From the NCBI GenBank assembly GCA_021463145.1, contig JAJTWZ010000026.1, positions 1 to 54,924 on the forward strand: a DNA stretch of 54,924 nt, read 5' to 3'. Position 1 is the stretch's first letter. Every line of letters starts with the position of its first letter. Positions 37,284 to 54,566 of this stretch are shown here, one piece after another. The notes under the pieces are model-generated. The model did no database searches. It saw only the letters and a program-made list of their open reading frames with translations, and was not told the origin of the DNA. This stretch comes from Blastocatellia bacterium (GTDB lineage Bacteria > Acidobacteriota > Blastocatellia > UBA7656 > JADIYM01). The position numbers and the translations under genes were made by a program.

Positions 37284-37313
37284 TTGCCGCTCCAGCGTGC
37301 GGACCACTATACT
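37284..37313 (+). promoter_or_regulatory. Predicted promoter for the GT2/phosphodiesterase locus, leaderless
   Basis: TTGCCG (37284-37289), an 18-bp spacer and TATACT (37308-37313). The expected start near 37320 falls 2 nt before the GTG at 37322, and no ribosome site precedes that codon. Confidence 0.6.
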
Positions 37314-37321
37314 GGCCGGTT

Positions 37322-38323
37322 GTGAAAAGCGCTGAAACTCCATTGGAACGAGAGATTTCCGTCGTCATACCGCTCCTTAACGAGGAGCCGAATCTCGTCG
37401 AGCTGAAGCAACGGCTAGACGACGTTCTTCCCACGGTCGCCGACCGCTACGAGGTCGTTTTCATCGACGACGGCAGCCGCGACGGATCTTACGGAACCCT
37501 GCGCGAACTCCACAAAGCCGACCCGCTACACACGAGGATCGTCCGCTTCCGGCGCAACTTCGGAAAATCGGCCGCGCTTGCCGCCGGCTTCGACCACTCG
37601 CGCTTCGACATCGTGCTCACGATGGACGCGGACCTGCAGGACGTGCCCGAGGAGATCCCCAAACTCATCGAGAAGCTCGAGAACGGATCGGATCTCGTCT
37701 CGGCCTGGCGGGTCAATCGCAACGATCCGATCTCCAAGACACTGCCATCCAAGGTCTACAACTTCGTGACGCGGTTTCTCACTGGCGTTCGGCTCCACGA
37801 CTTCAACTGCGGCTTCAAGGCGTACCGGCGCTCGGTGCTCGACGAGCTCGAAGTGTACGGCGAGCGTCATCGCTACATTCCGGTGCTCGCGAGCTATCGC
37901 GGATTCCGGATCAACGAGGTACAGGTCGACCACAAGCCCCGGCTGCGCGGGAAGTCGAAGTTCGGGTGGGAGCGGTATTTCGGCGGATTCTTCAGCCTTC
38001 TCACCGTGATCATGCTTGTCCGCTACACGAACAAGCCGCTTCACTTCTTCGGATTCGTGGGCGTCGTCACGCTTACGATCGGAACCGTGATCGACGTCTA
38101 CCTTTCGATCCTCTGGCTCGTGTTCCGCCGTCCGCTGAGCGACCGGCCGATTCTGATGCTCGGGACGCTGCTGATAATCATCGGGATCCAGTTCCTCTTC
38201 TTCGGTTTGCTGGCGGAGATGATCGCGTTCTCGGCTCGTCGCGACAACGACTACTCGATCGTCGAGCGCATCGACGCCGTCGATGCGCAGGCGCCGGTTC
38301 GAGTTACGGCATCCGTCGAGTAG
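37322..38323 (+). CDS. GT2 glycosyltransferase, dolichyl-phosphate-mannose-synthase-like
   Basis: A 333-aa membrane glycosyltransferase. The GT-A domain has ISVVIPLLNEEPNL, FIDDGSRDGSY and the DXD-type TMDADLQDVPEEI, then FNCGFKAYRRSVL, a pattern typical of enzymes that load a sugar onto polyprenyl phosphate. Two C-terminal transmembrane helices follow (about 245-305), as in GtrB-like proteins. The start is the GTG at 37322, where family homology begins and a promoter abuts the codon. It heads the plus-strand envelope locus and would supply a lipid-linked sugar. Confidence 0.9.
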   Translation: MKSAETPLEREISVVIPLLNEEPNLVELKQRLDDVLPTVADRYEVVFIDDGSRDGSYGTLRELHKADPLHTRIVRFRRNFGKSAALAAGFDHSRFDIVLTMDADLQDVPEEIPKLIEKLENGSDLVSAWRVNRNDPISKTLPSKVYNFVTRFLTGVRLHDFNCGFKAYRRSVLDELEVYGERHRYIPVLASYRGFRINEVQVDHKPRLRGKSKFGWERYFGGFFSLLTVIMLVRYTNKPLHFFGFVGVVTLTIGTVIDVYLSILWLVFRRPLSDRPILMLGTLLIIIGIQFLFFGLLAEMIAFSARRDNDYSIVERIDAVDAQAPVRVTASVE

Positions 38324-38334
38324 TCCATCCCGTC

Positions 38335-39225
38335 GTGTTGAAGAAACAACTCACAAGAGCCGCGACGGCGGCCCTCGTCATCACGGGCCGGCTCGTGAGT
38401 CCGAAAGCGGCGATGCGGCTCGCGGGCGGACTTGCCCGCCGTTTCAAACTCGATCCCAGGATCAACAAGCGGAGACTTCGCGAGAACCTTCGAACCTGTT
38501 TTCCCGGGAGAGAGGCAGAGTGGATCGAACGGATCGCGCGTGAACTGCAGGCAAACGCCGCTCGCGCCAGGATATTCGACAAGCACTTCGTCCCCAGGCT
38601 GTCAGTGGCGGAACTCGACGCCCTCGTCGAGGTAGTCGGCGGTGAACACCTCGAACGCGCGCGCGAAGAGAAGCGTGGCGTCGTCGCGCTTGGACTGCAC
38701 TTCGGCCGCTACTGGTGTTTTCCTGCTTGGGCGACCCAGCACGGCTACGTGACTACGGCGTTCCAGTCATCGGATGGCAGGCTGCCCGGCGCCGATCGCA
38801 TGCTCTCCGGCGGGTCGTTCAGTGCGAACGATCCCCGCGCTACCGTTCGCGCCGTAAAGGCCCTCAAGAAGGGGGCGATCTGCTTTCTGATCGCGGACGC
38901 CGGCAAAGTAGCTAACCCAGTGACGATAGATTTCGCCGGTCAGGCGACGCGGTTGTCCACTGCGGCGATCAGGCTGGCGAAGGCGGCCGACGCTTACGTC
39001 TTGCCACTGATCACCCCGATCCATCCTAACGATCCGGACAGGGTTCGTGTCGTATTGTTCGATCCGATCGATTCGCGCGAAGTGCCGGCCGGCGAGTCCG
39101 TCGAGGCGACGATGGCGCGCATCGTCGCGCCGTTCGAGGACTTCGTCAGGTCGCGTCCCGAGCAGTGGTACGGACTTCTGAACGTGCACAGGCGGATCGC
39201 CGAGAACGGAGGTGACGCAGCTTGA
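38335..39225 (+). CDS. LpxL/PatA-like lysophospholipid acyltransferase family protein
   Basis: A 296-aa protein of the HtrB/LpxL/PatA acyltransferase family. The short N-terminal hydrophobic stretch fits membrane association. The catalytic-histidine region reads GLHFGRYW (His122). The usual acidic residue five positions on is Trp127, so the HxxxxD/E motif is incomplete. The later block FLIADAGKVANP followed by FAGQATRLSTAAIRLAKA is family-typical. A GTG at 38335 or TTG at 38338 is the likely start, with no clear ribosome site. Its stop overlaps the next gene's TTG. It may acylate a glycolipid, or have lost activity. Confidence 0.8.
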   Translation: MLKKQLTRAATAALVITGRLVSPKAAMRLAGGLARRFKLDPRINKRRLRENLRTCFPGREAEWIERIARELQANAARARIFDKHFVPRLSVAELDALVEVVGGEHLERAREEKRGVVALGLHFGRYWCFPAWATQHGYVTTAFQSSDGRLPGADRMLSGGSFSANDPRATVRAVKALKKGAICFLIADAGKVANPVTIDFAGQATRLSTAAIRLAKAADAYVLPLITPIHPNDPDRVRVVLFDPIDSREVPAGESVEATMARIVAPFEDFVRSRPEQWYGLLNVHRRIAENGGDAA

Positions 39226-40925
39226 ACGTCGAGTCGTCCGCTGGCGCCGCGCCCAGGCGCGTCGTCGCAATCGGAATAGACGGTGGGAGCTTCCGGGTGC
39301 TGCGCCCCTGGATGGCGGAGGGCCACCTCCCGAATTTCGCGAGGATTGCCCGCGAAGGAGCGGTCGGCACCCTGATGTCGACGATCCCCCCGCTCACACC
39401 TCCCGCCTTCGTTTCCTCGATGACCGGGAAGAACCCTGGCAAGCACAACATCTTCGATTTCGTCCGCGTTCCACGCGACGGTTATCGGCGTTCCGTCATC
39501 AATTCGACACACGTTCGGGGCAACAAGCTCTGGACGATTCTCAACCACTACGGCCGCAAGGCCGGTATCGTCCACTTTCCGGCCTCCTATCCGCCGGAAC
39601 AGATCGACGGATTCATCGTTGGCGGCATCCTCACGCCCAAGGGTGTCGACTCGCACACCTGGCCGGTCGAACTTGCCGAAGAACTGCGCCGCGAAATTCC
39701 CGGCTACCGGATCTATCGGGGCCGCCAGCACCTGCAGGGCGACCTGGATGGCTATCTCGCGTCTCTTGTCGAGACGACGCAGGTGCACGCGGCCGAGGCG
39801 CTTTACCTGATGGAGAAGAAGCCGTGGGACTTCTTCTTCCTGATGTTCAAGTACACCGACGGCGCGAAGCACATCTACTGGAAGTTCTGGGACCGCGAAC
39901 ATCCTGCGTACCCCGGACCGAACCCGTACGAAAACGCAATCCTGGACGTCTATCGCCAGGTCGATGCCTTTCTCGGCAAGCTGCTCGACCGGCTCGACGG
40001 CGACACGACGCTGCTCGTTTACTCGGATCACGGGTTCATGTCGGTGCACACGTTCATCCACCTGCAGAACTGGCTGGCAAACGAAGGCTTCCTGACGGTC
40101 AAGACAGACGAGCAGCGCAAGATGCGCACGCTGATGGCGATGCACCATTACGGATTCCGGCGTGACAACCTCGTCGGCTGGCTCAAGCGCCACCACCTGG
40201 GATGGTTCCCGAAGCTCTTCCCGAACGCGGTCAAGGACAAGGTTCCACGAACGCGCCTTGGCATGAACGAATTCGCGCGTTTCATCGACTGGAAACGCAC
40301 GCGCGCCTATCAGCTGGCGGAATCGGGACGGGGCGTGAACCTGCACATCAAGGGGCGCGAACCTCTCGGCTGCGTGCCGGCGGAGGGGCCCGAATACGAG
40401 ACGCTGCGAAGCGAGATCATGGGTCGACTGCGTGAGCTACGCGATCCGAAAACCGGCGAGTCCGTCGTCGCCGGGATGTGGACAAAAGAAGAGGTCTACA
40501 GCGGGCCTTACCTGCGAAACGCACCTGACATCCTGATCGAGTTGAAGAAGGGCTACTGCTTCGCCGAGGGCTTTGGAAAGGACGTCTTCGTGAAGGCCGC
40601 GCGCGAGCCGTTCGACAAGTCGGCGAACCACGAGCTCGAAGGCGTTCTTTTCGCACGCGGGCCGAACATCCGGACTGGCGTCGAACTCGAGCCCACCGAC
40701 GTTCTGGACATCGCACCGACCGTTCTCTATGCGATGGGTCTGCCCGTTCAGGAAGCGATGGACGGCCGGGCGCTGATGGAGCTCTACGACGACGCTTACG
40801 TCGCGGCAAATCCGGTGACATTCGACCGGATTCCGGAACCTGACGACCCGGCTGAAGGCTACGACTACTCCGACGACGAGATTGGCAGCGTTCAGGACGA
40901 GCTGAAGAGTCTCGGATATCTGTGA
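39222..40925 (+). CDS. Alkaline-phosphatase-superfamily phosphodiesterase, paralogue 1
   Basis: A 567-aa soluble protein of the nucleotide pyrophosphatase/phosphodiesterase branch. Metal and catalytic residues are in place: Asp20 in AIGIDGGS, nucleophile Thr59 in IPPLTPPAF, Asp213/His217 in TDGAKH, Asp269/His270 in YSDHGF, and the late His in NHELEGVLFARGP. No signal peptide or membrane helix is seen, so it should be cytosolic. The start is TTG at 39222 with a near-perfect GGAGGTGA 6 nt upstream. The C-terminus YDYSDDEIGS...LKSLGYL recurs in the next two paralogues. The substrate is unknown, perhaps a phospho-sugar or lipid-phosphate diester. Confidence 0.9.
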   Translation: MNVESSAGAAPRRVVAIGIDGGSFRVLRPWMAEGHLPNFARIAREGAVGTLMSTIPPLTPPAFVSSMTGKNPGKHNIFDFVRVPRDGYRRSVINSTHVRGNKLWTILNHYGRKAGIVHFPASYPPEQIDGFIVGGILTPKGVDSHTWPVELAEELRREIPGYRIYRGRQHLQGDLDGYLASLVETTQVHAAEALYLMEKKPWDFFFLMFKYTDGAKHIYWKFWDREHPAYPGPNPYENAILDVYRQVDAFLGKLLDRLDGDTTLLVYSDHGFMSVHTFIHLQNWLANEGFLTVKTDEQRKMRTLMAMHHYGFRRDNLVGWLKRHHLGWFPKLFPNAVKDKVPRTRLGMNEFARFIDWKRTRAYQLAESGRGVNLHIKGREPLGCVPAEGPEYETLRSEIMGRLRELRDPKTGESVVAGMWTKEEVYSGPYLRNAPDILIELKKGYCFAEGFGKDVFVKAAREPFDKSANHELEGVLFARGPNIRTGVELEPTDVLDIAPTVLYAMGLPVQEAMDGRALMELYDDAYVAANPVTFDRIPEPDDPAEGYDYSDDEIGSVQDELKSLGYL

Positions 40926-42154
40926 GCGCAACTGGCGTGATGGCGGCCGTTCGAGCGATGGCAGAAACCACTCAACAGGAAGCGGATTCCCGCAGGCTGG
41001 CGCTGCGAACGCTCGACGCCTCGGTCGGGCTCGCGCTGGACCGGCTCGACCGTCGCCGGCACCACATATTCGCGATCTGGCTCGAAGGACTTGCCGCGCA
41101 CCTGTCTCCTTGCGTCCGAGAACTTGGAGTGACCCGAGCGCACGTTCGAAACCGGCCGATGCACTTTGGCGGGGCGAACGAGCACGTGATCCCGCGCATG
41201 CTCGAGAGCCATTACGCCTACGCGGCGTTCGGTCCACGCTGGTTCGACAAGCTGGGCTTCGACCTCGTTCACTTCCCCTTCCTCTTCGCGCCGTACTCGT
41301 GGGCCGGATCGCGCGTGGCTCGCGTGGTCACGATTCACGGTTCGGCGCGCAACGAAATGCCTTACGAAATGCGGAAGCGCTTCGGGATGGGAAAGCTCGC
41401 GCGCATGACCGAGGCGCTCGCCGGTTACGACGCAATTCTCGCCGTTTCGGAGAGCGCCAGACGCGAGGCGTCGGAGTTCTACGGCATTCCTGACGATCGC
41501 ATTCGCGTCGTGCACGATGCGATAGGCGATCAGTTCCGTCCGGGACCTCCGTCGATGCAGGTCCTCGAGCGGTACGGCATCCGTCGTCCGTTCATCCTCT
41601 CGCTCTGCACGCTCCGCCCCAAGAAGAACGTCGGGACGACCGTCGCCGCTTTTGCCGGGCTGAGGCGTCGCGGCGCGCCACATCAGCTCGTGCTCGTTGG
41701 CGACAAAGCTCCCGGCTATACGGAGGTGGATGAGAGAATCGCCGAGCTCGGGCTCGAGGCCGACGTCGTACAGACCGGCTTCGTACCCGCCGCCGAGGTG
41801 CCGGAGTTCTACCGCGGAGCATCTCTGCTGCTCTTTCCGTCGTTTCACGAAGGCTTCGGCCTTCCCGTCGCCGAAGCTCAGGCGTCGGGCTGCCCCGTCG
41901 TGGCGACGAACGCCTTTTCGATCCCGGAGGTGAGCGGCGGCGCGGCCGAACTTGTGGACGATCCCCGCAGCGTCGACGAGGTCGCCGATCGAGCCTGGGC
42001 CATCCTCGAGGACGAGGCGCGCCGGAACGATCTGGTCGCACGCGGACTGGAGAACGTCAGGCGGTTTCGATGGGACAGAATCCTCGATACGACGATCGAC
42101 GCTTACGAGTATGCGTTGGACCGCTCAGTGTCGCGGCGGGGAGGCCCCAGGTGA
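40922..42154 (+). CDS. GT4 glycosyltransferase, paralogue A
   Basis: A 410-aa GT-B glycosyltransferase. The C-terminal half has the donor-binding motif FPSFHEGFGLPVAEAQASG, with the E-x7-E pair in EGFGLPVAE, and VVATNAFSIPEVSG. The N-terminal half starts ALDRLDRRRHH, matching paralogue B. GTG start at 40922 overlaps the previous stop as GTGA. No transmembrane helix. It is flanked on both sides by phosphodiesterase paralogues, so it probably glycosylates an intermediate they also process. Confidence 0.92.
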   Translation: MSATGVMAAVRAMAETTQQEADSRRLALRTLDASVGLALDRLDRRRHHIFAIWLEGLAAHLSPCVRELGVTRAHVRNRPMHFGGANEHVIPRMLESHYAYAAFGPRWFDKLGFDLVHFPFLFAPYSWAGSRVARVVTIHGSARNEMPYEMRKRFGMGKLARMTEALAGYDAILAVSESARREASEFYGIPDDRIRVVHDAIGDQFRPGPPSMQVLERYGIRRPFILSLCTLRPKKNVGTTVAAFAGLRRRGAPHQLVLVGDKAPGYTEVDERIAELGLEADVVQTGFVPAAEVPEFYRGASLLLFPSFHEGFGLPVAEAQASGCPVVATNAFSIPEVSGGAAELVDDPRSVDEVADRAWAILEDEARRNDLVARGLENVRRFRWDRILDTTIDAYEYALDRSVSRRGGPR

Positions 42155-43815
42155 GTTCGCCACGAGCCATCATGATCGGCCTTGACGGAGCCACGTGGAA
42201 CGTCCTGCGCCCCTGGGCGCTATCCGGCGAGTTGCCGAACCTGAAGCGGATCGTCGAAGGTGGCGCCACGGGCCCGCTACGCTCGACGCTTCCTCCCCTG
42301 ACGCCGACGGGTTGGACATCGGCCGCGACCGGAAAGGCTCCGGGCAGGCACGGCGTCTACTCTTTCTTCCGGCCGATGCGCGCGAGCTATCGCCGCAATG
42401 TGCTCAACTCCCGCGACTGCCGGGCCGCGAAGATCTGGCAGATCGTGAACGCGTACGGAAGACGAGCCGGCATCGTCCATCTGCCCCTCACCTATCCCGT
42501 CGATCGCGTCGATGGGTTCATGGTGGGCGGAATGATGACGCCCACGACCGCGCGCGACGTGACTCATCCGCCGGAGCTCATCGATGAGCTCGAACGCGAG
42601 ATCGACGGTTTCACTCTGAACGTCGACACGACCACCATAAAGACCGGCCGGCTCGACGAGTTTCTGGCCGACTCGATGGAGCACGTCCGCCGTCATCGCC
42701 GTGAAATGGTCCACCTGATGGACGCGAAAGAGTGGGACCTGTTCTGGATCATGTTCTACAACGTGGATCCGATCGCGCATTTCTTCTGGAAGTTCATGGA
42801 TCCGCGGCACGTGGGCTATCCGGGGCCGAATCCGTTTTCGAATGCCGTCCTCGACATTTATCGCGAGGCCGACGCCGCAATCGGCGATGCACTCGACCGG
42901 CTCGGTCCCGGCGACCATCTGGTTCTGCTCTCGGACCACGGCATGGAAGCGACGCACACGAACGTCCACCTCACGTCGTGGCTGATCGACGAGGGATACC
43001 TCGTCCTCCGAAGCGAGCGGCGTCAGGCTACGAGCGAAGCGCTCTACCGCGCGGGGTTCCAGCGAGAGCGCCTCGTCTATGCGCTGAAGAAGGCGAAACT
43101 CGGATGGCTGCCGAAGCTCTTTCCCGAACGGATGAAGGACAAGGTTCCGCGCGCCCGGAAGACCTTCAAGGAGATCGAGAACAACGTCGACTGGTCGCAG
43201 TCCAGGGCGTACTTTCCGTCGGCCGGGGGCCGGGCTATATGGATCAACCTGAAGGGCCGGGAACCTGGCGGTATCGTCGAGCCAGGTGACTTCGAGGCGC
43301 TGCGCGCCGAGATCGTCGAAAAGCTGAAGGCGCTGCGCACGGAGGACGGAAAGCCCGTCGTGAGGCTCGCGCTCACGCGCGAGGAAGCGTACGAGGGCGC
43401 GTTTGTCGACGATGCTCCTGACATCGCCCTGCTCGCCGAGGACGGATTCTACTTTGCCGAGGGCATCGAGCGGCCGGTACTGAGATCGAACGGAACGAAG
43501 AACACTGAAAAGTCGGGCAACCATCACGTCGACGGCATCGTCGCGCTTTTCGGCGAAGGGGTGCGCCCCGGGTTGACGCTCGATGGAGCGCGAATCGTGG
43601 ACGTTGCTCCGACGGTCCTGCATCTGATGGGGTTGCCGGCGCAGAAGGATATGGACGGACGTGTGCTCGACGAGGCGTTGACGGCGTCCTTCCTGAGGGA
43701 TCGCCCGCTTGCGTACGACCAGGCACGCGTGGAAATCGACACTGCGGGATTCGATTATTCGGACGACGATCGTGGACAGATCGAGGCGCGACTCAAGGAA
43801 ATGGGATATATGTGA
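42151..43815 (+). CDS. Alkaline-phosphatase-superfamily phosphodiesterase, paralogue 2
   Basis: A 554-aa homologue of paralogue 1 with the same catalytic set: Asp12 in MIGLDGATW, Thr51 in LPPLTPTGW, the D/H pair in NVDPIAH, SDHG in LLSDHGMEATH, and the late His in GNHHVDGIVALFGEG. The C-terminus FDYSDDDRGQ...LKEMGYM repeats the shared tail. GTG start at 42151 has GGGGAGG 6 nt upstream and overlaps the GT4 stop as GTGA. No export signal. It is closer to paralogue 1 than to paralogue 3 in the middle region (KLFP..MKDKVPR block shared). Confidence 0.9.
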   Translation: MSSPRAIMIGLDGATWNVLRPWALSGELPNLKRIVEGGATGPLRSTLPPLTPTGWTSAATGKAPGRHGVYSFFRPMRASYRRNVLNSRDCRAAKIWQIVNAYGRRAGIVHLPLTYPVDRVDGFMVGGMMTPTTARDVTHPPELIDELEREIDGFTLNVDTTTIKTGRLDEFLADSMEHVRRHRREMVHLMDAKEWDLFWIMFYNVDPIAHFFWKFMDPRHVGYPGPNPFSNAVLDIYREADAAIGDALDRLGPGDHLVLLSDHGMEATHTNVHLTSWLIDEGYLVLRSERRQATSEALYRAGFQRERLVYALKKAKLGWLPKLFPERMKDKVPRARKTFKEIENNVDWSQSRAYFPSAGGRAIWINLKGREPGGIVEPGDFEALRAEIVEKLKALRTEDGKPVVRLALTREEAYEGAFVDDAPDIALLAEDGFYFAEGIERPVLRSNGTKNTEKSGNHHVDGIVALFGEGVRPGLTLDGARIVDVAPTVLHLMGLPAQKDMDGRVLDEALTASFLRDRPLAYDQARVEIDTAGFDYSDDDRGQIEARLKEMGYM

Positions 43816-43860
43816 GGTTCGACCGGCCCTCGGGCCGGCCGTAACGGGAGGCACACGAAC

Positions 43861-44385
43861 ATGCAGACGAAGAACGAACCGATCCTCATCGTGATTATGG
43901 CCTGCGCCCTTGCGTTGGGCGCGTGCTCGGGAGTCGGTCCAAAGAAGAAGGAAGCCACGGGCGAGCAGGCGAAGTCCGACTCGAAGGCTCTTTACGAACC
44001 CGATCTCTCCAAGCCGGACGGGCCACTGCTGCAGATGTTGCGCGCGGCGCAGGACCGGGATGAAGCGCTCTTCAGGGCTAGTTTTGCTCCGAACGTAGAC
44101 ACGGCCTGGATGTCCGAGGAAGGCTTCAAGAAGTTCCGGAAGAAGGTGCTCAGCAGCAACGTGACCCCGGTGCCCGAGAGTGCGCAGATGAACGGTGACA
44201 ACGACGCCGTGGTTCGGTTGCGCAATGCGCGCGGCAAGGAAATTCCGGTGAAGGTCACGAAGATCGACGGCAAGTGGTTCATCGCGGAGATCGGCCTCGG
44301 CCAGAGGCTCATGAACCGGATGAACGAGAAGAATCCCCAGGCCGCGCCCGCTGCTCCTGCCGCGCCGCAGGGGAAGTCGTCCTGA
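43861..44385 (+). CDS. Lipoprotein of unknown function
   Basis: A 174-aa precursor. The signal sequence ends in the lipobox LGAC, giving lipidated Cys22. The mature part is a small alpha/beta domain (PDGPLLQMLRAAQDRDEALF through KIDGKWFIAEIGLGQRLM) resembling NTF2/DUF4878-like folds. An Ala/Pro-rich tail closes the chain. GGGAGG lies 9 nt before the ATG. It sits between phosphodiesterases 2 and 3, the only exported soluble component of the locus, and may bind or guide the finished product at the envelope (inference). Confidence 0.8.
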   Translation: MQTKNEPILIVIMACALALGACSGVGPKKKEATGEQAKSDSKALYEPDLSKPDGPLLQMLRAAQDRDEALFRASFAPNVDTAWMSEEGFKKFRKKVLSSNVTPVPESAQMNGDNDAVVRLRNARGKEIPVKVTKIDGKWFIAEIGLGQRLMNRMNEKNPQAAPAAPAAPQGKSS

Positions 44386-44401
44386 TGGGTATCCGTTTCT
44401 C

Positions 44402-46045
44402 GTGAGCGAACGGGTACTCGTCATCGGTCTGGACGGAGCGACGTGGACGGCACTGGATCCACTGATCGCGGAAGGCCGCATGCCCGCATTGGAGTCGCTC
44501 GTCGACCGCGGTTTCCGTGCGCCACTAACCAGCACGGTACCGCCGGTGACGGCGCCAGCGTGGTCCTCGTTCATTACCGGCCAGAACCCTGGACGCCACG
44601 GCATTTACCAGTTCTACGAGATCGATCCGTGGAGCGAGCGCGCACTCGGGCGTGGCGCCGAGACGTTCCTCGCCGAGCCAGGCGTGGTCGTGAACGGCAA
44701 GGCGCTCGGCGGCCCCAAACTCTGGGAGGTCGCAAGTGCGGCGGGCAAGCGTTGCGTCTCGATCAACCTGCCGATGACGTATCCCCCATCGCCGATCAAC
44801 GGGCTGATGGTCACCGACATGCTCACGCCACCTGGAAGCAGGCGGTTCACGACTCCGCCTGAGCTCGCCGCCGAGCTCGACGATTACGAGATCGATCTGA
44901 CGCCGCGCGAGAAGGACTTCACGTCGACCGACGACGCATTTCTGAATCGGGCGGAGATCGTGCTCGACAAGCGGGGACGCGCGGTTCAGCGTCTGTTCGA
45001 ACGCGAAGAGTGGGATCTTTTCGTAGCTGTGTTCACGGAAACCGACCGAATCCAGCACAGGTACTGGCAGTACCTCGATCCTGCGCTGGCCTGGAGCCAC
45101 GGCCACGAGCACGAGGACGTCAGGCAACGAGTCCTGTCGCTCTACGAGCGGCTCGACGGACACATCGGACGGCTGCTGGACGCCGCGGGCGATCGTTATC
45201 GCGTCGTGCTCGTGTCCGACCACGGCTTCGGCTCCGCGGCGTTTCGGCGGATCAACATGCCGGTGCTTGCCGGCGCGATCGGGCTCGGCAGCAAGCCTCC
45301 CGCATCGTCCCGGCTCGCGAAACTCGGCCTAACGAAGAAGCGGTTTTACAAGTACGCGGGTTTCCTGGTTCCGGACGGGCGGCTGCGCAACGCCGAGCGC
45401 ATGGCGCGAGACCGCGCGCTCCGCGACGTAAAGGGCAAGCTCGTAAAGCTGCATGACTACATCGGGGGCGTCTGGATTCACGCGGCATCGCGCGGAGGCC
45501 CGGTGCCGGACGAGGATGTGCCGAAGTTCCGGGACAGCATCATCGACCGGCTGCGATCGCTCATCAATCAGGGCACCGGCACCCCGATCGTCGCGGGTGC
45601 GATGCCGCGCGAGTTGGTGTTTTCCGGCGAGCGCGTTGCCAGCGCTCCGGACGTTATTTTCTTCCTCGACGATCGGTACGGCCTCGATCCGACACCACGC
45701 GAGGAGGCGCTCATCTACAAGTGGGATCCGCCAAACACCGGAACGCACCGGTCCGACGGCATCTTCCTCGTTGCCGGCGACGGAATCGCAAAGAGCGATC
45801 CGGCGACGCCGCTTCGAATCGAGGATTGCGCTCCGACGATCCTGCATCTACTCGGGTTGCCGGTCCCCGCCGCGATGGACGGACGGGTAATGGCAGAAGC
45901 GTTCGAGCCGGACTTCCTGTCGGCGCATCCGGTGCAGATGTCTGGCGAGAGCTACTCGACGCCCGCTCAGGGCGGAGAGTGGGATTCGGACGACGAGCAG
46001 GCCGAGATAATGGAACGGCTGCGCGGCATCGGGTACGTGGAGTGA
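44402..46045 (+). CDS. Alkaline-phosphatase-superfamily phosphodiesterase, paralogue 3
   Basis: A 547-aa homologue with Asp11 in VIGLDGATW, Thr50 in VPPVTAPAW, the D/H pair in TETDRIQH, VSDHGFGSAAF, and the late His in GTHRSDGIFLVAGDG. The tail WDSDDEQAEI...LRGIGYVE keeps the shared C-terminal element. GTG start at 44402 just after the lipoprotein; the ribosome site is weak. No signal peptide. It is more diverged than paralogues 1 and 2, so it may use a different substrate. Confidence 0.9.
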   Translation: MSERVLVIGLDGATWTALDPLIAEGRMPALESLVDRGFRAPLTSTVPPVTAPAWSSFITGQNPGRHGIYQFYEIDPWSERALGRGAETFLAEPGVVVNGKALGGPKLWEVASAAGKRCVSINLPMTYPPSPINGLMVTDMLTPPGSRRFTTPPELAAELDDYEIDLTPREKDFTSTDDAFLNRAEIVLDKRGRAVQRLFEREEWDLFVAVFTETDRIQHRYWQYLDPALAWSHGHEHEDVRQRVLSLYERLDGHIGRLLDAAGDRYRVVLVSDHGFGSAAFRRINMPVLAGAIGLGSKPPASSRLAKLGLTKKRFYKYAGFLVPDGRLRNAERMARDRALRDVKGKLVKLHDYIGGVWIHAASRGGPVPDEDVPKFRDSIIDRLRSLINQGTGTPIVAGAMPRELVFSGERVASAPDVIFFLDDRYGLDPTPREEALIYKWDPPNTGTHRSDGIFLVAGDGIAKSDPATPLRIEDCAPTILHLLGLPVPAAMDGRVMAEAFEPDFLSAHPVQMSGESYSTPAQGGEWDSDDEQAEIMERLRGIGYVE

Positions 46046-47223
46046 GCCCGGGCGACCCTCGCGGCGCTCGCGATCGCGCGCGCCCGAAGCGTCGGCCCCT
46101 GGTCGCTATCGCCGTCGACCGGCTCGACCGGCGGCGCCATACTTTCGGGTTGCTGCTCGAGCACCTCGTGGCGGCACTTCGCGACGAAGCGCCGGACCTC
46201 GACATTGTTTTGGTGCGCGATCGCGGCCGGACGGACATCCGCGTCGCCGGCGTCCGCGAGCTGTTCGTCCCGGCGGCGCTCGCGCGCACGGCGGCATACT
46301 CGCGGCTCGCGCCGCTGTGGTTCCAGCGCCACGGCGTCGCGCTCGTTCACTTCCCGTTTCTCTTCGCCCCGGCGTCGTGGGCGGGCACGTCGCTTCGAAG
46401 GGTCGTGACGATCCACGGCGCGTCGCGCGCGGCGCTCGACGAGGATCTCGTCGCGAAGTTCTCGGACGCGGAGTTGTCGAAAACGCGGCGGCGGCTCGCG
46501 GCCTTCGATCGCGTGCTCACCGTCTCGAACTCGGCGAAGCTCGAGGTCGTCGAGCACTACCGGGTGCCGGCGGATCGCGTGACGGTCGTCTACAACGGAG
46601 TCGGCGCCGCGTTTCGTCCCGATGCACGCAACGCCGACGCCCTCGAGAAGTACGGCGTGAAGCCGCCGTACCTGCTCACGATCTCGACGATCAAGCTGAA
46701 GAAGAACGTCGTCGCGTCCGTGCGCGCGTTCGCCCGCCTTCGTGAGCGCCACCCGGACATGCCGCATGCGCTCGTGCTGGTCGGGTACACGATGGCGGGC
46801 TACACGGAGGTCGACGACGAGATCCGCCGGCTCGGGCTCGAGGAGCACGTCGTGAAGACCGGTTGGACGGAGAGTGCGGACATTCCGGCGCTCTATGCGG
46901 GCGCGGATCTCGTCGTGTTTCCGAGCCTCCACGAAGGCTTCGGCCTGCCGGTCGTCGAAGGAATGGCGAGCGGCGTCCCGGTCGTCGCATCGAACGTGTG
47001 TTCGATTCCCGAGGTCGGCGGCGACGCGATCCTGCTATTCGATCCAACGGACGTAGACGCGATCGTCGACGCCGCCGAGCGGGCGCTCTTCGATCCTCGA
47101 GTGCGCCGCAGCCTCGTCGATCGCGGCCTCCGGCGCGCAGGGTCTTTTACCTGGGCTGAAGCGGCCCGCCGCACGGCGGCCGTCTATCGCGGGTTGCTGG
47201 GTTCTGTCTCGAGCGAACTCTGA
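46042..47223 (+). CDS. GT4 glycosyltransferase, paralogue B
   Basis: A 393-aa GT-B glycosyltransferase homologous to paralogue A. It has VAVDRLDRRRHTFG, LVHFPFLFAPASWAG (nearly identical to A) and the donor motif FPSLHEGFGLPVVEGMASG followed by VVASNVCSIPEVGGDA. GTG start at 46042 overlaps the phosphodiesterase-3 stop as GTGA. Its codons look even more G/C-biased than its neighbours by eye, which is not computed. It ends the locus; strong inverted repeats follow. Confidence 0.92.
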   Translation: MSPGDPRGARDRARPKRRPLVAIAVDRLDRRRHTFGLLLEHLVAALRDEAPDLDIVLVRDRGRTDIRVAGVRELFVPAALARTAAYSRLAPLWFQRHGVALVHFPFLFAPASWAGTSLRRVVTIHGASRAALDEDLVAKFSDAELSKTRRRLAAFDRVLTVSNSAKLEVVEHYRVPADRVTVVYNGVGAAFRPDARNADALEKYGVKPPYLLTISTIKLKKNVVASVRAFARLRERHPDMPHALVLVGYTMAGYTEVDDEIRRLGLEEHVVKTGWTESADIPALYAGADLVVFPSLHEGFGLPVVEGMASGVPVVASNVCSIPEVGGDAILLFDPTDVDAIVDAAERALFDPRVRRSLVDRGLRRAGSFTWAEAARRTAAVYRGLLGSVSSEL

Positions 47224-47520: not shown

Positions 47521-47811
47521 TTGATCGGACGTTTGTTTGGATCTATTCGGCGGGGTGGCGTCGCTCCCTGGCTACCGCCTATTCCCCTCCGAATCCGAGA
47601 CCGCTTCGATCCGATCGCGGGCCGGATTGCCGCCGCTCTGGCCGTCCTCGCGCTCGCAGCAGGTGCGTGGGCATTCTGGCTCTTCCAGAACCACGAGCGG
47701 AGTCCCACTGTTACAACCGGTCGATCCGCTCTGACAGATTCGCTCGCGCCTGCGCGCAGGCCGCCTTGTTCGGCATTGCGCTACCTCGCACGGCTCCGCG
47801 ACGCCCGGTGA
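47521..47811 (+). CDS. Possible small membrane protein
   Basis: A 96-aa frame with one hydrophobic segment at about residues 35-53 and a TTG start preceded by GAGGA 8 nt upstream. It overlaps the end of the convergent DUF4384 gene by about 30 bp. No homology is recognised and the composition is typical of chance frames in high-GC DNA, so this is a weak call. Confidence 0.25.
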   Translation: MIGRLFGSIRRGGVAPWLPPIPLRIRDRFDPIAGRIAAALAVLALAAGAWAFWLFQNHERSPTVTTGRSALTDSLAPARRPPCSALRYLARLRDAR

Positions 47812-48698
47812 CCGTAGTTCAGCTTCACCTGGTAGAGCACTCCGTGGTCGCTCGCGACGCCGGGCCGGTAGAGCACGGTCTGCGGCACCGGATCCGCTTT
47901 CGCGAGCGATCGCGTTCCGTCCGAGCCCGCGTCCTTCTCGGCGCTCGTCCACGGCCTACCAGCGCCGCCCTCCATCTCCAGCCGGCCGGCCTGGCCGCCC
48001 CATAACCGCTCCCACGTCGCGACCTGTTCCTCCGTCAACCGCTGCTCGCTGTCCGTCACCGTCACGCCCTCGATCGGCTTCGGCGACACTATGATCGTGA
48101 CGCTCTCCGCCACGTGTTCCGGCCGGCTTTTTCGCAACGTGAAGAACGGAGGCGCATCTCCCTGCGCGGGAAGCTCGATGACGCGGCCCACGCTTACCTG
48201 GTTGTCGCCGCCCCGCGCCCTCGTCGTCGGAAAGATGAGGATCGGTTCGCCCCGCGTGCCATTGGCGTATTCTTCGCGATTGATCACATACAGGTAACCC
48301 GTCCGCGCCGCCTCGATGCTGATCCGCAGGCGATCTCCCTGCGCGAGCCGAGTCGACGACGACACACGCTGCGGCACCCACTCCGCGTCTTCCTGACCGT
48401 TGTGCGTGATGATCCGTTCACCAGCGTCCGACCGCCGCGCCGGTCGAAGCCGCCACATCGTCACACCCACGACCGTGTCCGCGGTGACACCGGCCACCGG
48501 CACCTTCGGCGTCGCAATCCGGTAGATCCGTTTCGAGCGGCTCCCTCTGGCCGCCGTCCCCGCCGCGGGGGCGATATACGCCGTATTCCACAGGTGTCGA
48601 GTTCCGTCGTCCGGTCCGGCGGAATCCTGGGCGCCCACCCCGGCGAGCGAAAGTTGAGTGAAGAGACCGACGGCGAACAGGCAGATCCATTTCCTCAT
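47781..48698 (-). CDS. Secreted DUF4384 protein
   Basis: A 305-aa exported protein. The signal peptide is MRKWICLFAVGLFTQLSL followed by a cut near GAQDS. The middle, about residues 100-200, is a DUF4384 domain with RLAQGDRLRISIEAARTGYL and ILIFPTTRARGGDN. This pattern recurs in the extracytoplasmic part of the kinase three genes upstream on the same strand. I chose the ATG at 48698 because AAGGGGGTG lies 7 nt upstream. It is probably the last gene of the ECF-kinase-CHAT cluster and may bind the same ligand or surface as the kinase (inference). Confidence 0.85.
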   Translation of the reverse strand: MRKWICLFAVGLFTQLSLAGVGAQDSAGPDDGTRHLWNTAYIAPAAGTAARGSRSKRIYRIATPKVPVAGVTADTVVGVTMWRLRPARRSDAGERIITHNGQEDAEWVPQRVSSSTRLAQGDRLRISIEAARTGYLYVINREEYANGTRGEPILIFPTTRARGGDNQVSVGRVIELPAQGDAPPFFTLRKSRPEHVAESVTIIVSPKPIEGVTVTDSEQRLTEEQVATWERLWGGQAGRLEMEGGAGRPWTSAEKDAGSDGTRSLAKADPVPQTVLYRPGVASDHGVLYQVKLNYGHRASRSRAR

Positions 48699-48753
48699 GG
48701 TTTGCACCCCCTTTCATCACGGAAACCGTAACCCGCCGGAAAATGCCCTCACG

Positions 48754-51700
48754 CTATCGCCACTCTCCCTGCAGGACGAAGGCGCTCCAGAAATACGGCG
48801 ATCGCCACTGCTTCTGCTTCCACATCTCGACCTGAGCCCCGCGCAGCGCCGCCGCGGGCCGCTCGCCACGCTTCAGCATCCGTTCGTAGAACCTGGCCAT
48901 CAACTCGGACGTCGCCCGGTCGTTCACGTTCCACAGGCTGACGACGACCCGTGCCGCACCCGCGTACATGAACCCGCGCGTCAATCCGACGAGCCCCTCG
49001 CCCTTCACGTCCTTTCCCAGCCCCGTCTGGCACGCACTCAGCACCACGAGGTCCGCGGGCAGCTTCAGATTGTAGACATCGTTCGCGCGCAGGAAACCGT
49101 CCGTCGGGTTCCCGTCCGCATCGACCATGGACAGCACGAGCGACGACAACCCCGGCCGCTCGGTGTCCAGCAGTCCGTGAGTCGCGAAATGGACGTACCG
49201 GTACTGGGAAAGCTCGCCGCCGAGTACCGCGTCGCGATTCGCCTTGAAGTCGACCGCGCCGAAGCCCGAGTCTGGCGGCACGAGCGAGATCAGTCGCGTC
49301 GCCTCCTGCCGGGTGAACGGAAGTCGAGGGATCACGAGCCGAGTCGTCGCCGCCGCGCCGTCCTTCGACTTATCGGCGAGGTGCTCGATGGTGCGCGCAT
49401 CGTTCACCGCAAGCGACTGCATCGGCCCCTTGTCGCTGGCCTTTCGGGCAACCGCCTTGAGCCGCACGTCCGACGGGTCGAACACCGGATCGGCGACGAC
49501 GGCCAGAAGTTTCGGGGCAGGCTGCCGGCCAGCAATCTCCAGACGCTGAATCGCCAGCGCCGAAGCGGACGGCAGGCTTACGACTTCGTGATCCACGACG
49601 AGCGGACGCCCGTCCGCTGAGGCCGGAGCGGGTAACACCGCAAACGGAACGTACTGAAGTGCGCCGTCCGCCACCACGACCAGACGCTTCGTCCCAAGCT
49701 CGCCCGCGACCGGCGCGAGCACCATCCTGGCGAGCTCGCCGGCAGCAGCCGAGGCATCGGTATTGCGCACTTTCAGAAGTCCGTAGACGTCGAGGGCGCG
49801 TTTCTCGATCTCGGTTCCCTTCGGCAGCTCGAAGCTCTTGAGCGAATCGCTGGTGATCGCCCACACGTAGCTGCGGTCCGCACCAAGCGCGTACTCGAGC
49901 ATCAGCGTGTCAGGGTCGAGCTGCGCCTGGATCTGTTTCAGATCGAGCGGCTCGGGCTGCGCAAGTGACGCGTAGTGAGGATTGTTCTTCCGAATCGCGA
50001 CCTGCGCCCGCTCGAGCTCGGTCTCGATCTGGCCGATCTCGAGTTTGAGCGCGGCGGCTTTCTCGGGAGTGTCGGTCCTGGTCCGCGCTTTCTCGTTGAG
50101 CCGTCGGGCAAGGACCTGCTCGCGTTCCAGAAGCGCCGGATCCACGCCCTTCCGGAAGTCCGTTCCTGCCTCCACGAGCAGATCGAGAAGGCTGCGGGCT
50201 CGCTGCCGCTCGCTGACGTTGACCGCCAGGGCATCGAATCCCCTGGAAGGGTCCGCCTTGTGCTGGCGCATAAGGATGTCGGTGTAGAGCTGATACGACG
50301 TCTGGACGGACGCGAGAAGCGACGTGCGCGATGCCGGGCTGACCTGATCGGCCCGAAGCGACTCGGCTACCTTCAGTGCCTCCTCGATACGCGTGCGCGC
50401 CGAGGCCAGGTTATCGCGGTCGTTCTCGGTCCAGGCCAGGTTCTGGAGTGCAGTCAGTTCGTACTCGGGATTCTTCACCTCTCGGGCAAGGGCAAGCGCC
50501 TGCTCCGAATTCGCTATCGCCTTGTCGTACTGACGTTGAGATCGATTCAACTGAGCCAGCGCGTTCAACGTGCCTGCCTCGTGCGGCCGCGACTTGATGT
50601 TGCGAAAGATGGCCAGAGCCTGTTCGTAGTATTCGGCTGCCTTCGCCGGCTGGCCCAGCTTGTAACTCACCGAGCCCAGCGACCGGAGCGTGAAGCCTTC
50701 CACTGTCACATCCTTCTGTTCGCGGTTGATGACCAGAGCCTGCTCGAGAAACTCGTTGGCTTTGTCGAGTTGACCAAGCGTGAGATAAACGCCGCCCATG
50801 TCACCAAGAGTCCGTCCCTCTGCGTAGCGGGTCCTGGTCTCGCGCGCGATCGCGAGCGACTGCTCGGCATACTCGAAGTACTTGTCGTAACGGCGAAGCG
50901 CGGAATATGCGTTCGCGATATAGGCGAGCGTGACGCCCTCATCGCGGCGCATCTTCAGTTCACGCTGGACCGCAAGGGCCATCTCGAAGTACTCGATGGC
51001 CTTCTCGTAGCGGCTCAGCGACTGGCTTGTAATACCCAGGCCGTTCAACGCGCTCTCCTCGCGGCTTCGGTCCTTCATTTCGCGGAATATCGCCAGCGCC
51101 TGCTCGAAACTGGAGATTGCTTCCTGCGACCGGCTCGCGCCGAGGTAAGCCCAACCGACATCGGCGAGCGTACCTCCCTCGCCGGACCGATCCTTCAACT
51201 CGCGCTTGATTGCCAGTGCCTGCTCGTAAAACGGAATGCCCCGGTCTGGGACGCGCATCGTGTTACCGACAATGCCAAGGTCGTTGAGCGTAGCGCCTTC
51301 GCCGCCGCGGTTTTTCAGTTCGCGCTGAATCGCCAGCGCCTGTTTACCGTAATCGACAGACTTCTCGTACTCCCGCGTGCTGTAACAGAACCCGCTGAGC
51401 GCTGTCAGCGCTGCGGCTTCACGGGCACGCAGGTTCGACTCGCGGGCGGATGCCAGCGCCTGCTCGTATGACGCAAGCGCCTTCTCCTGCGAACCGGTGC
51501 CAAAATGCGCGTCTCCGATGCCGCCCAGGGTGACGGCAATCCACGACGGTTCTTTCAACTCGCGCCAGATCGCGAGTGCCTGCTCGAGCTTCTCGATTGC
51601 CTTAGGCGCCGCTTCCGGACCGGACTTTCGAAGCGCAATGCTCTCGAGCATCAAGGTCTGCGCGGCGAGAAACTTGCGATCCGGCTCGGAGGCCTGCGAC

Positions 51701-52083
51701 TGGATCGTCGCCTCGAGCCGATAGGCGCCGCGCCACGTCGATACGCTGCGCACTTCAAGTCGATAGTCGCCGGCCGTGGCGACCTCGGCGGCGAGCACAT
51801 CCTGCTCTCCGATGCCGGTGAAATCCACTTCCCCGACCGGCGTGCCGTCTGGCGCCGAAAAAGCGAGGGCACCGTCGATGGACCTCTGATCAAGCCGGAC
51901 TCGAACGAACTGGCCCGCCGTCAGTGCGATCCTGTATGTCTGCGACTCCCCACCGGCTATCTCGCGCTCGATCGGTTTATCGACGCCGAACTGCTGTGCC
52001 TCCGGGCCTGACTGGCCGTTCACAGCCGGAGCGAAACACGGAACGAGCAGCAGAGCGAGCAGTATGCGAGTGTTCCTGGACAT
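48754..52083 (-). CDS. Secreted TPR-CHAT caspase-like protein
   Basis: An 1109-aa exported protein. A signal peptide (about 1-24, ending PAVNGQ) is followed by a small beta domain (about 30-125), some ten tetratricopeptide repeats (about 150-600) and a C-terminal CHAT domain (about 760-1109). The caspase-like dyad is present: His969 in YVHFATHGLLD and Cys1018 in VVLSACQTGLG. Family members such as separase relatives and TPR-CHAT effectors are proteases activated through their repeats. I chose the ATG at 52083 because GGAGG lies just upstream. It is between the membrane kinase and the secreted DUF4384 protein. Confidence 0.93.
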   Translation of the reverse strand: MSRNTRILLALLLVPCFAPAVNGQSGPEAQQFGVDKPIEREIAGGESQTYRIALTAGQFVRVRLDQRSIDGALAFSAPDGTPVGEVDFTGIGEQDVLAAEVATAGDYRLEVRSVSTWRGAYRLEATIQSQASEPDRKFLAAQTLMLESIALRKSGPEAAPKAIEKLEQALAIWRELKEPSWIAVTLGGIGDAHFGTGSQEKALASYEQALASARESNLRAREAAALTALSGFCYSTREYEKSVDYGKQALAIQRELKNRGGEGATLNDLGIVGNTMRVPDRGIPFYEQALAIKRELKDRSGEGGTLADVGWAYLGASRSQEAISSFEQALAIFREMKDRSREESALNGLGITSQSLSRYEKAIEYFEMALAVQRELKMRRDEGVTLAYIANAYSALRRYDKYFEYAEQSLAIARETRTRYAEGRTLGDMGGVYLTLGQLDKANEFLEQALVINREQKDVTVEGFTLRSLGSVSYKLGQPAKAAEYYEQALAIFRNIKSRPHEAGTLNALAQLNRSQRQYDKAIANSEQALALAREVKNPEYELTALQNLAWTENDRDNLASARTRIEEALKVAESLRADQVSPASRTSLLASVQTSYQLYTDILMRQHKADPSRGFDALAVNVSERQRARSLLDLLVEAGTDFRKGVDPALLEREQVLARRLNEKARTRTDTPEKAAALKLEIGQIETELERAQVAIRKNNPHYASLAQPEPLDLKQIQAQLDPDTLMLEYALGADRSYVWAITSDSLKSFELPKGTEIEKRALDVYGLLKVRNTDASAAAGELARMVLAPVAGELGTKRLVVVADGALQYVPFAVLPAPASADGRPLVVDHEVVSLPSASALAIQRLEIAGRQPAPKLLAVVADPVFDPSDVRLKAVARKASDKGPMQSLAVNDARTIEHLADKSKDGAAATTRLVIPRLPFTRQEATRLISLVPPDSGFGAVDFKANRDAVLGGELSQYRYVHFATHGLLDTERPGLSSLVLSMVDADGNPTDGFLRANDVYNLKLPADLVVLSACQTGLGKDVKGEGLVGLTRGFMYAGAARVVVSLWNVNDRATSELMARFYERMLKRGERPAAALRGAQVEMWKQKQWRSPYFWSAFVLQGEWR

Positions 52084-52151
52084 ACGACCTCCATCCAAGC
52101 GACCGTAGTTTAGTGGGGAGCCCCCTCACGGAGACACGAGTAGCGGACGGG

Positions 52152-53984
<1,833 letters not shown>

Positions 53985-53990
53985 GCGGCT

Positions 53991-54566
53991 TTATGCGTCG
54001 AGCTCGCGGCGAAGCCAGGCCCTGGCAAAATTCCAGTAGCGCTCTACTGTCGCGTGCGAGAGATGCATTGCCTCGGCTGTTTCTTCGATTGTGAGGCCAC
54101 CGAAATAGCGCAGCTCGACGACGCGGCTGTAGCCGGCCTCAGTCTCGGCAAGACGCTTCAACGCCATATCCAGCAGGAGCAGATCGATCTCGGGCTTTGT
54201 TCCGACGCGATCGGCCTCGCCAAGAGACAGCATGAGCTGGTTGCCGCCACGCTTCGCAGCGTGCCGCCGTCGCGCGTGATCGACAAGTATGTCGCGCATC
54301 AACTTTGCCGCCAAACCGAAGAACTGCGCGCGGTTCTCGAACGTGATCGACGACTGATCGGTGAGTTGAACATATGCCTCGTGAACCAGCGAAGTCGCCT
54401 CGAGCGGGCGAGGACCCGGCCGGCGCCGCAGGTAAGAGGCCGCCAGACGACGAAGCTCGACGTAGACCAGCGGCACGAGCTCGTCGAGCGCGGCCTTGTC
54501 ACCACCGCTCCAACGAGCAAGCAGTATGGTGACGTCGTGCTGTGTAGGCACACCTGATGTGGGCAT
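53991..54566 (-). CDS. ECF sigma factor of the acidobacterial type (TIGR02999-like)
   Basis: A 191-aa RNA polymerase sigma factor. Region 2 contains LLARWSGGDKAALDELVPLV and LRRLAASYLRRR. Region 4 contains RVVELRYFGGLTIEETAEAM followed by SHATVERYWNFARAWLRREL. These match the large ECF family associated with Ser/Thr kinases in acidobacteria and planctomycetes. No anti-sigma gene is adjacent; the kinase downstream may control it by phosphorylation (inference). The ATG at 54566 has AGGT 5-6 nt upstream; longer frame upstream is not family-like. Confidence 0.92.
   Translation of the reverse strand: MPTSGVPTQHDVTILLARWSGGDKAALDELVPLVYVELRRLAASYLRRRPGPRPLEATSLVHEAYVQLTDQSSITFENRAQFFGLAAKLMRDILVDHARRRHAAKRGGNQLMLSLGEADRVGTKPEIDLLLLDMALKRLAETEAGYSRVVELRYFGGLTIEETAEAMHLSHATVERYWNFARAWLRRELDA

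Follow-up and report, generated by a model that had tools for sequence, protein, structure and literature searches.

What would a bacterium make with an operon that sets three phosphodiesterases among glycosyltransferases? The question is raised by eight open reading frames (ORFs) of a Blastocatellia bacterium (phylum Acidobacteriota; assembly GCA_021463145.1) on contig JAJTWZ010000026.1. The whole of this contig (C93, one of the 173 contigs of a 5.28-Mb genome), 54,924 nt in length, is the window analysed here. ORF inspection of the window placed all eight genes on the positive strand in the order GT2-LPLAT-PDE1-GT4A-PDE2-LPP-PDE3-GT4B: three glycosyltransferases (GTs), an acyltransferase homologue of the LpxL/PatA fold (LPLAT), three phosphodiesterases (PDEs) and a lipoprotein (LPP). 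The operon probably helps to build a lipid-linked surface sugar.

Proposed role of the operon

A role at the cytosolic leaflet, on a lipid-linked glycan, is fairly well supported, because the PDEs have no signal peptide, carry a cationic insert and have relatives encoded beside GTs and Wzx-type flippases. A cytosolic, probably lipid-linked glycan setting had also been claimed from the sequence alone, and it gains support from the glycan-locus context of the relatives, the PDE2 model, the insert and the flippases found in a second Blastocatellia family (see below). Our explanation, taken whole, is that the operon encodes a surface-glycan assembly unit at the cytosolic face of the inner membrane, whose PDEs act on phosphate bonds of a lipid-linked glycan or its donor; on balance we lean towards it. 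GT2 would load a sugar onto polyprenyl phosphate, and GT4A and GT4B would extend the lipid-linked acceptor with further sugars. The PDEs would be soluble, peripheral-membrane two-metal enzymes acting, probably each on its own substrate, on bonds of the phosphodiester or pyrophosphate type, either in the lipid-linked glycan or in an activated donor. The product would presumably be flipped, a Wzx-type flippase being encoded in the relatives' locus and elsewhere in the source genome; the NTF2-fold lipoprotein would work on the far side of the membrane, and the LPLAT homologue, which lacks the catalytic acid, may bind lipid instead of acylating.

The layout is that of Table 1. Read from the DNA letters, the junctions LPLAT/PDE1, PDE1/GT4A, GT4A/PDE2 and PDE3/GT4B are 4-nt overlaps, and the other genes are separated by 11 nt (GT2/LPLAT), 45 nt (PDE2/LPP) and 16 nt (LPP/PDE3). 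The nearest upstream gene, a LysR regulator, is 133 nt away, and the opposite strand begins downstream of the operon. The Pfam scan of the operon proteins assigned the PDEs to Phosphodiest (PF01663, 140-149 bits) and both GT4s to GT4 models (PF00534/PF13692/PF13439), with no match for the lipoprotein. Genes, gene order and the four overlaps all agree with what the sequence-only reading had described.

The GT2 aligned over its full length (residues 9-301, C-terminal helices included) with the solved ArnC 9hwj (4e-51) and with GtrB sll0501 5ekp (4e-34). It differs from these enzymes in scoring 187 bits against the ArnC equivalog model, below the cut-off of 529, so that the match is at class level only, and in that no GtrA/GtrC or ArnT partner was identified. 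GT4A and GT4B both have the EX7E motif in their sequences, and among GT-B enzymes they are similar to the MshA/PimA class. The AlphaFold2 (AF2) model of the lipoprotein (pLDDT 71 overall, ~90 in the core) gave best Foldseek matches that were mostly NTF2-like; these weak but consistent matches suggest an NTF2-like fold behind the lipobox LGAC.

Table 1 Genes of the operon, with coordinates in the window
Feature	Position	Strand	Basis
GT2, ArnC/GtrB-type polyprenyl-phosphate glycosyltransferase with C-terminal hydrophobic helices	37322..38323	+	PF00535 (109 bits); structure matches
LPLAT, LpxL/PatA-fold acyltransferase homologue without catalytic Glu	38335..39225	+	PF03279 Lip_A_acyltrans (73.8 bits); HFGRYW replaces HX4E
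PDE1, cytosolic alkaline-phosphatase-superfamily (COG3379-type) phosphodiesterase	39222..40925	+	PF01663 (140 bits); catalytic residues; clade with PDE2
GT4A, GT-B glycosyltransferase	40922..42154	+	PF00534/PF13439; clade with GT4B and f5 GT4
PDE2, NPP-like core	42151..43815	+	AF2 model, pLDDT 92
LPP, lipoprotein with lipobox LGAC, NTF2-like fold (weak)	43861..44385	+	AF2 and Foldseek; f5 orthologues in the same position
PDE3, older separate PDE lineage	44402..46045	+	PF01663 (148 bits); own 100/100 clade
GT4B, GT-B glycosyltransferase	46042..47223	+	PF00534 (105 bits); f5 orthologues adjoining their PDE3

Fold, active site and insert of the phosphodiesterases

The operon PDEs belong to a family that we take to be COG3379. 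The best structural matches of the PDE2 model were NPPs: the Xanthomonas NPP 7n1s (Z 28.5, 349 residues aligned, root-mean-square deviation 3.4) and, tied with it since Z scores differing by 1 or less were counted as ties, the lipid-active NPP6 5ege (Z 28.1). With the NPP family (Xanthomonas NPP, NPP6/NPP7) the PDEs share the alkaline-phosphatase-superfamily core, the two-metal ligand set and the Thr/Ser nucleophile. Ligands and nucleophile are complete in PDE1, PDE2 and PDE3, as had been claimed from the sequence, and the PDE2 residues D11, T/S50, D205, H209, D261, H262 and H457 are kept across 36 aligned members (two rows are gapped at D11), the nucleophile being T in 24 and S in 12. The PDEs differ from the NPPs in having no signal peptide, in a near-invariant Phe (34 of 36 members) in the column of the NPP active-site Asn that follows the HGI motif (HGIIDN), in a cationic insert of ~90 residues after the SDHG motif, in a conserved C-terminal L..(L/M)GY tail and in their tandem runs within glycan loci. 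They are an uncharacterised lineage of the superfamily with an NPP-like fold. EboF of the ebo operon is likewise a PF01663 enzyme inside a biosynthetic operon, a predicted hydrolase of a phosphate-containing substrate whose function is unknown (PMC5133447); its gene company is different, and it is described there as forming a separate lineage within PF01663.

A signal peptide has no room in PDE2, as the first beta-strand of the model starts at residue 5, and in all three PDEs the IGLDG/IGIDG strand begins within ~20 residues of the N-terminus. The EptA/LtaS-type extracytoplasmic phosphotransferases have, in contrast, an N-terminal membrane domain and a periplasmic catalytic domain, and phosphodiester chemistry in the cytosol before flipping, if true, would differ from the decoration that they are known to make outside. 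The insert (PDE2 residues 265-352) has a net charge of +2 to +16, with a mean of +9.7, and is cationic in all 36 members; in 28 of them its charge exceeds that of every other window of this length, and windows elsewhere in these proteins mostly average below zero. It may form a surface that binds the inner leaflet or a polyanion.

Enzymes of the alkaline-phosphatase superfamily are mostly hydrolases, and so are the closest folds to the PDE2 model (NPPs, phosphonoacetate hydrolase and NPP6/7). Both facts would suit PDEs with a role in quality control or salvage, which would cleave nucleotide sugars, or polyprenyl-(di)phosphate glycans that have stalled, and in this way regulate flux and recover sugar phosphates or carrier lipid. 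We regard this as possible though less than probable: up to six paralogues per locus, with old lineages kept side by side, suggest distinct biosynthetic steps, and Phe replaces the NPP Asn. For PDEs that take part in glycan assembly, the chemistry could be phosphoryl transfer onto successive intermediates or plain hydrolysis; transfer seems slightly more likely, because the paralogues are many and distinct ones have been retained long-term.

Relatives and history of the locus

Close matches to GT4B (E <= 1e-70) were found in four of 162 genomes of the class: the source genome and three genomes (G010, G022 and G038) of another Blastocatellia family, here called f5. The G022 locus (L069, L087) reads Wzx-type flippase-PDE-LPLAT-short PDE-PDE-PDE2-like-LPP-PDE3-GT4-membrane protein; that of G010 is similar with the genes more spread, and that of G038 is divided among contigs, L088 being one. 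The core common to the operon and f5 is an LPLAT followed by PDE2-LPP-PDE3-GT4, with the LPP orthologues in the same position. The f5 orthologues of PDE3 are 48-49% identical to it, as are those of GT4B, which adjoin PDE3. A PMT_2 protein adjoins the G010 locus; this family commonly uses polyprenyl-phosphate sugars. A PDE followed directly by a GT4 with a 4-nt overlap is also present in a second f5 locus (L161) and on contig C1 of the source genome (L018:8703-11476), where both proteins are highly divergent from the window pair. The sequence-only reading had called for a search for conserved PDE-GT4 neighbourhoods, and they exist, as a partial gene order that recurs in f5 and as PDE genes adjoining GT4 genes at further loci, also in other phyla.

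Module duplication, which the same reading had proposed for the repeated PDE-GT4 pairs, was not borne out. In a PDE tree of 68 rows PDE1 and PDE2 clustered with the PDE2-like copies of f5 (100/100), and PDE3 with its f5 orthologues formed a separate 100/100 clade. Approximately unbiased (AU) tests rejected a grouping of PDE1 with PDE3 (p 9e-6), although the GT4s are close, and a grouping of all three PDEs (p 5e-4). PDE3 is no recent duplicate of PDE1 or PDE2, therefore the pairs were not copied as units, and duplication as proposed is ruled out for PDE1/PDE3. GT4A, GT4B and the f5 GT4 formed a single clade (100/99) whose inner order differed by tree, (GT4A,(GT4B,f5)) at 94/76 versus (GT4A,GT4B) at 86/69; the former tree is the cleaner, since the set that gave the latter included several antisense ORFs with long branches. 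A joint duplication, with PDE1-GT4A derived from the PDE2...GT4B unit, may have occurred, as PDE1 and PDE2 as sisters were not rejected (AU test, p 0.06) and the GT4 orders conflict.

A scan of genomes of 84,980 species with a PDE3 profile found relatives, often in tandem, in Chloroflexota, Planctomycetota, Nitrospirota, Thermodesulfobacteriota, Poribacteria, an Aenigmatarchaeon and others. One Nitrospiraceae locus (L100) has six PDE paralogues, and a planctomycete locus (L096) reads Wzz-LPLAT-Wzx-PDE-GT4-PDE. The f5 loci carry Wzx-type flippases, and L090, L096, L100 and L101 also encode Wzx. The PDE relatives resemble members of Wzx/Wzy-type polysaccharide loci in adjoining Wzx, Wzz, Wzy and GTs. 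Of 95 genes neighbouring related PDEs, most of them from other phyla, the commonest Pfam families were GT4 (10), GT2 (10) and Wzx (7), followed by Wzz (3), acyltransferase (3), PMT_2 (3) and Wzy (2), which speaks for a role in glycan assembly. COG3379-type PDEs could, by extension, be a general and unrecognised class of cytosolic phosphotransferases in many bacterial phyla and some archaea, often working with an adjoining GT4; before flipping, each would attach or exchange a phosphodiester-linked group on the lipid-linked glycan. We put this forward tentatively and consider it rather doubtful. The family is widespread, has a complete catalytic site and recurs as tandem copies in the surface-glycan loci of phyla that are poorly cultured; the reaction of one member, once assigned, would help to interpret many envelope-glycan gene clusters. 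A recurrent tandem pair of longer PDE-like proteins (~650-710 aa), often followed by a protein of ~270 aa, was seen in Eisenbacteria, Deltaproteobacteria and others (L108-L127); in L116 both long proteins match PF01663 and the 274-aa neighbour has no Pfam family.

Points against, and other readings

Several points weigh against a glycan-assembly role for the operon. The counts of Pfam families among the 95 neighbours of related PDEs have no random-gene control. Orthologues at the level of the locus were found in only the same four of 162 genomes, and GT2 is outside the conserved neighbourhood, none having turned up close to the f5 loci. Unlike Wzx/Wzy-type loci, the operon has no adjoining Wzx, Wzy or Wzz (genes of 36.2-48.7 kb); the Wzx-type genes of the source genome are on contigs C58, C84 and C28, the last clustering with a PDE. 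The ligand of the cationic insert could be some polyanion instead of the membrane. Structure and literature searches (the latter of open-licence PubMed Central papers) found no solved structure or described activity for the PDE family, nor any paper on its role. The family may also not share a single substrate, because related PDEs elsewhere are linked to APS kinase and not to GTs.

Of the 17 PDE-bearing genomes matched, 12, all of Blastocatellia, have an APS kinase gene on the same strand as PDE paralogues and within ~2.5 kb of them (G000 C128, G001 C7, G002 C33, G003 C50, G005 C167, G006 C3, G007 C480, G009 C20, G013 C185, G029 C14, G033 C120 and G056 C441). The copy on G000 C128 (L017:641-7936) is the only APS kinase of the source genome, whose ATP sulfurylase is on a different contig. 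This linkage hints that some family members meet 3'-phosphoadenosine 5'-phosphosulfate (PAPS), with no direct bearing on the window operon. Alkaline-phosphatase-superfamily folds catalyse at both phosphorus and sulfur, which would also agree with a family that acts on phosphosulfate or other nucleotide-activated groups, and with a sulfated or similarly decorated glycan as the operon product. Such PAPS-linked chemistry is unlikely here, as neither the window operon nor the f5 loci are linked to APS kinase, whose gene in G010 and G022 adjoins ATP sulfurylase instead, and the linked PDEs are paralogues at only ~30% identity.

The acyltransferase motif was judged in alignments that set the operon protein beside 5kn7 and beside 13 further LPLATs from the phylum. 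These 13 have HX4E; the operon protein has HFGRYW, in which Trp stands where HX4(D/E) has its acid, and its f5 orthologues have HYGRFW and HYGRIW. The sequence-only reading of an LpxL/PatA-like acyltransferase holds for family and fold (PF03279) and needs one correction, the missing catalytic acid. Acylation is not to be assumed, because Trp replaces this acid in the protein and its orthologues; the branch seems either to have stopped acylating or to employ a different residue. The acid is also absent in LPLATs that adjoin Wzx-type genes in L096 (7595-8524, HMGIYY) and on contig C58 of the source genome (L180:2550-3476, HLGRPL). A likeness to phosphatidylinositol-mannoside synthesis, also suggested from the sequence, proved superficial: a pathway of that kind, with a phospholipid glycosylated by GT2 and the GT4s and acylated by the LpxL/PatA homologue, would fit the MshA/PimA-class GT4s and the PatA fold of the LPLAT, but we reject it as very improbable because the GT2 is ArnC/GtrB-like, the LPLAT lacks HX4(D/E) and it scored 48.1 bits against NF005919, the model of the phosphatidylinositol-mannoside acyltransferase, for which the cut-off is 209.

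A defence system was also considered and rejected: PADLOC gave no match for any of the eight proteins, and GT4-conflict Pfam models scored below general GT4 models. Downstream, on the negative strand, positions 47781-54566 of the window encode an extracytoplasmic function (ECF) sigma factor, a protein kinase that weakly matches DUF4384, a TPR-CHAT protein of 1109 aa and a DUF4384 protein, a cluster that resembles a module for signalling or stress.

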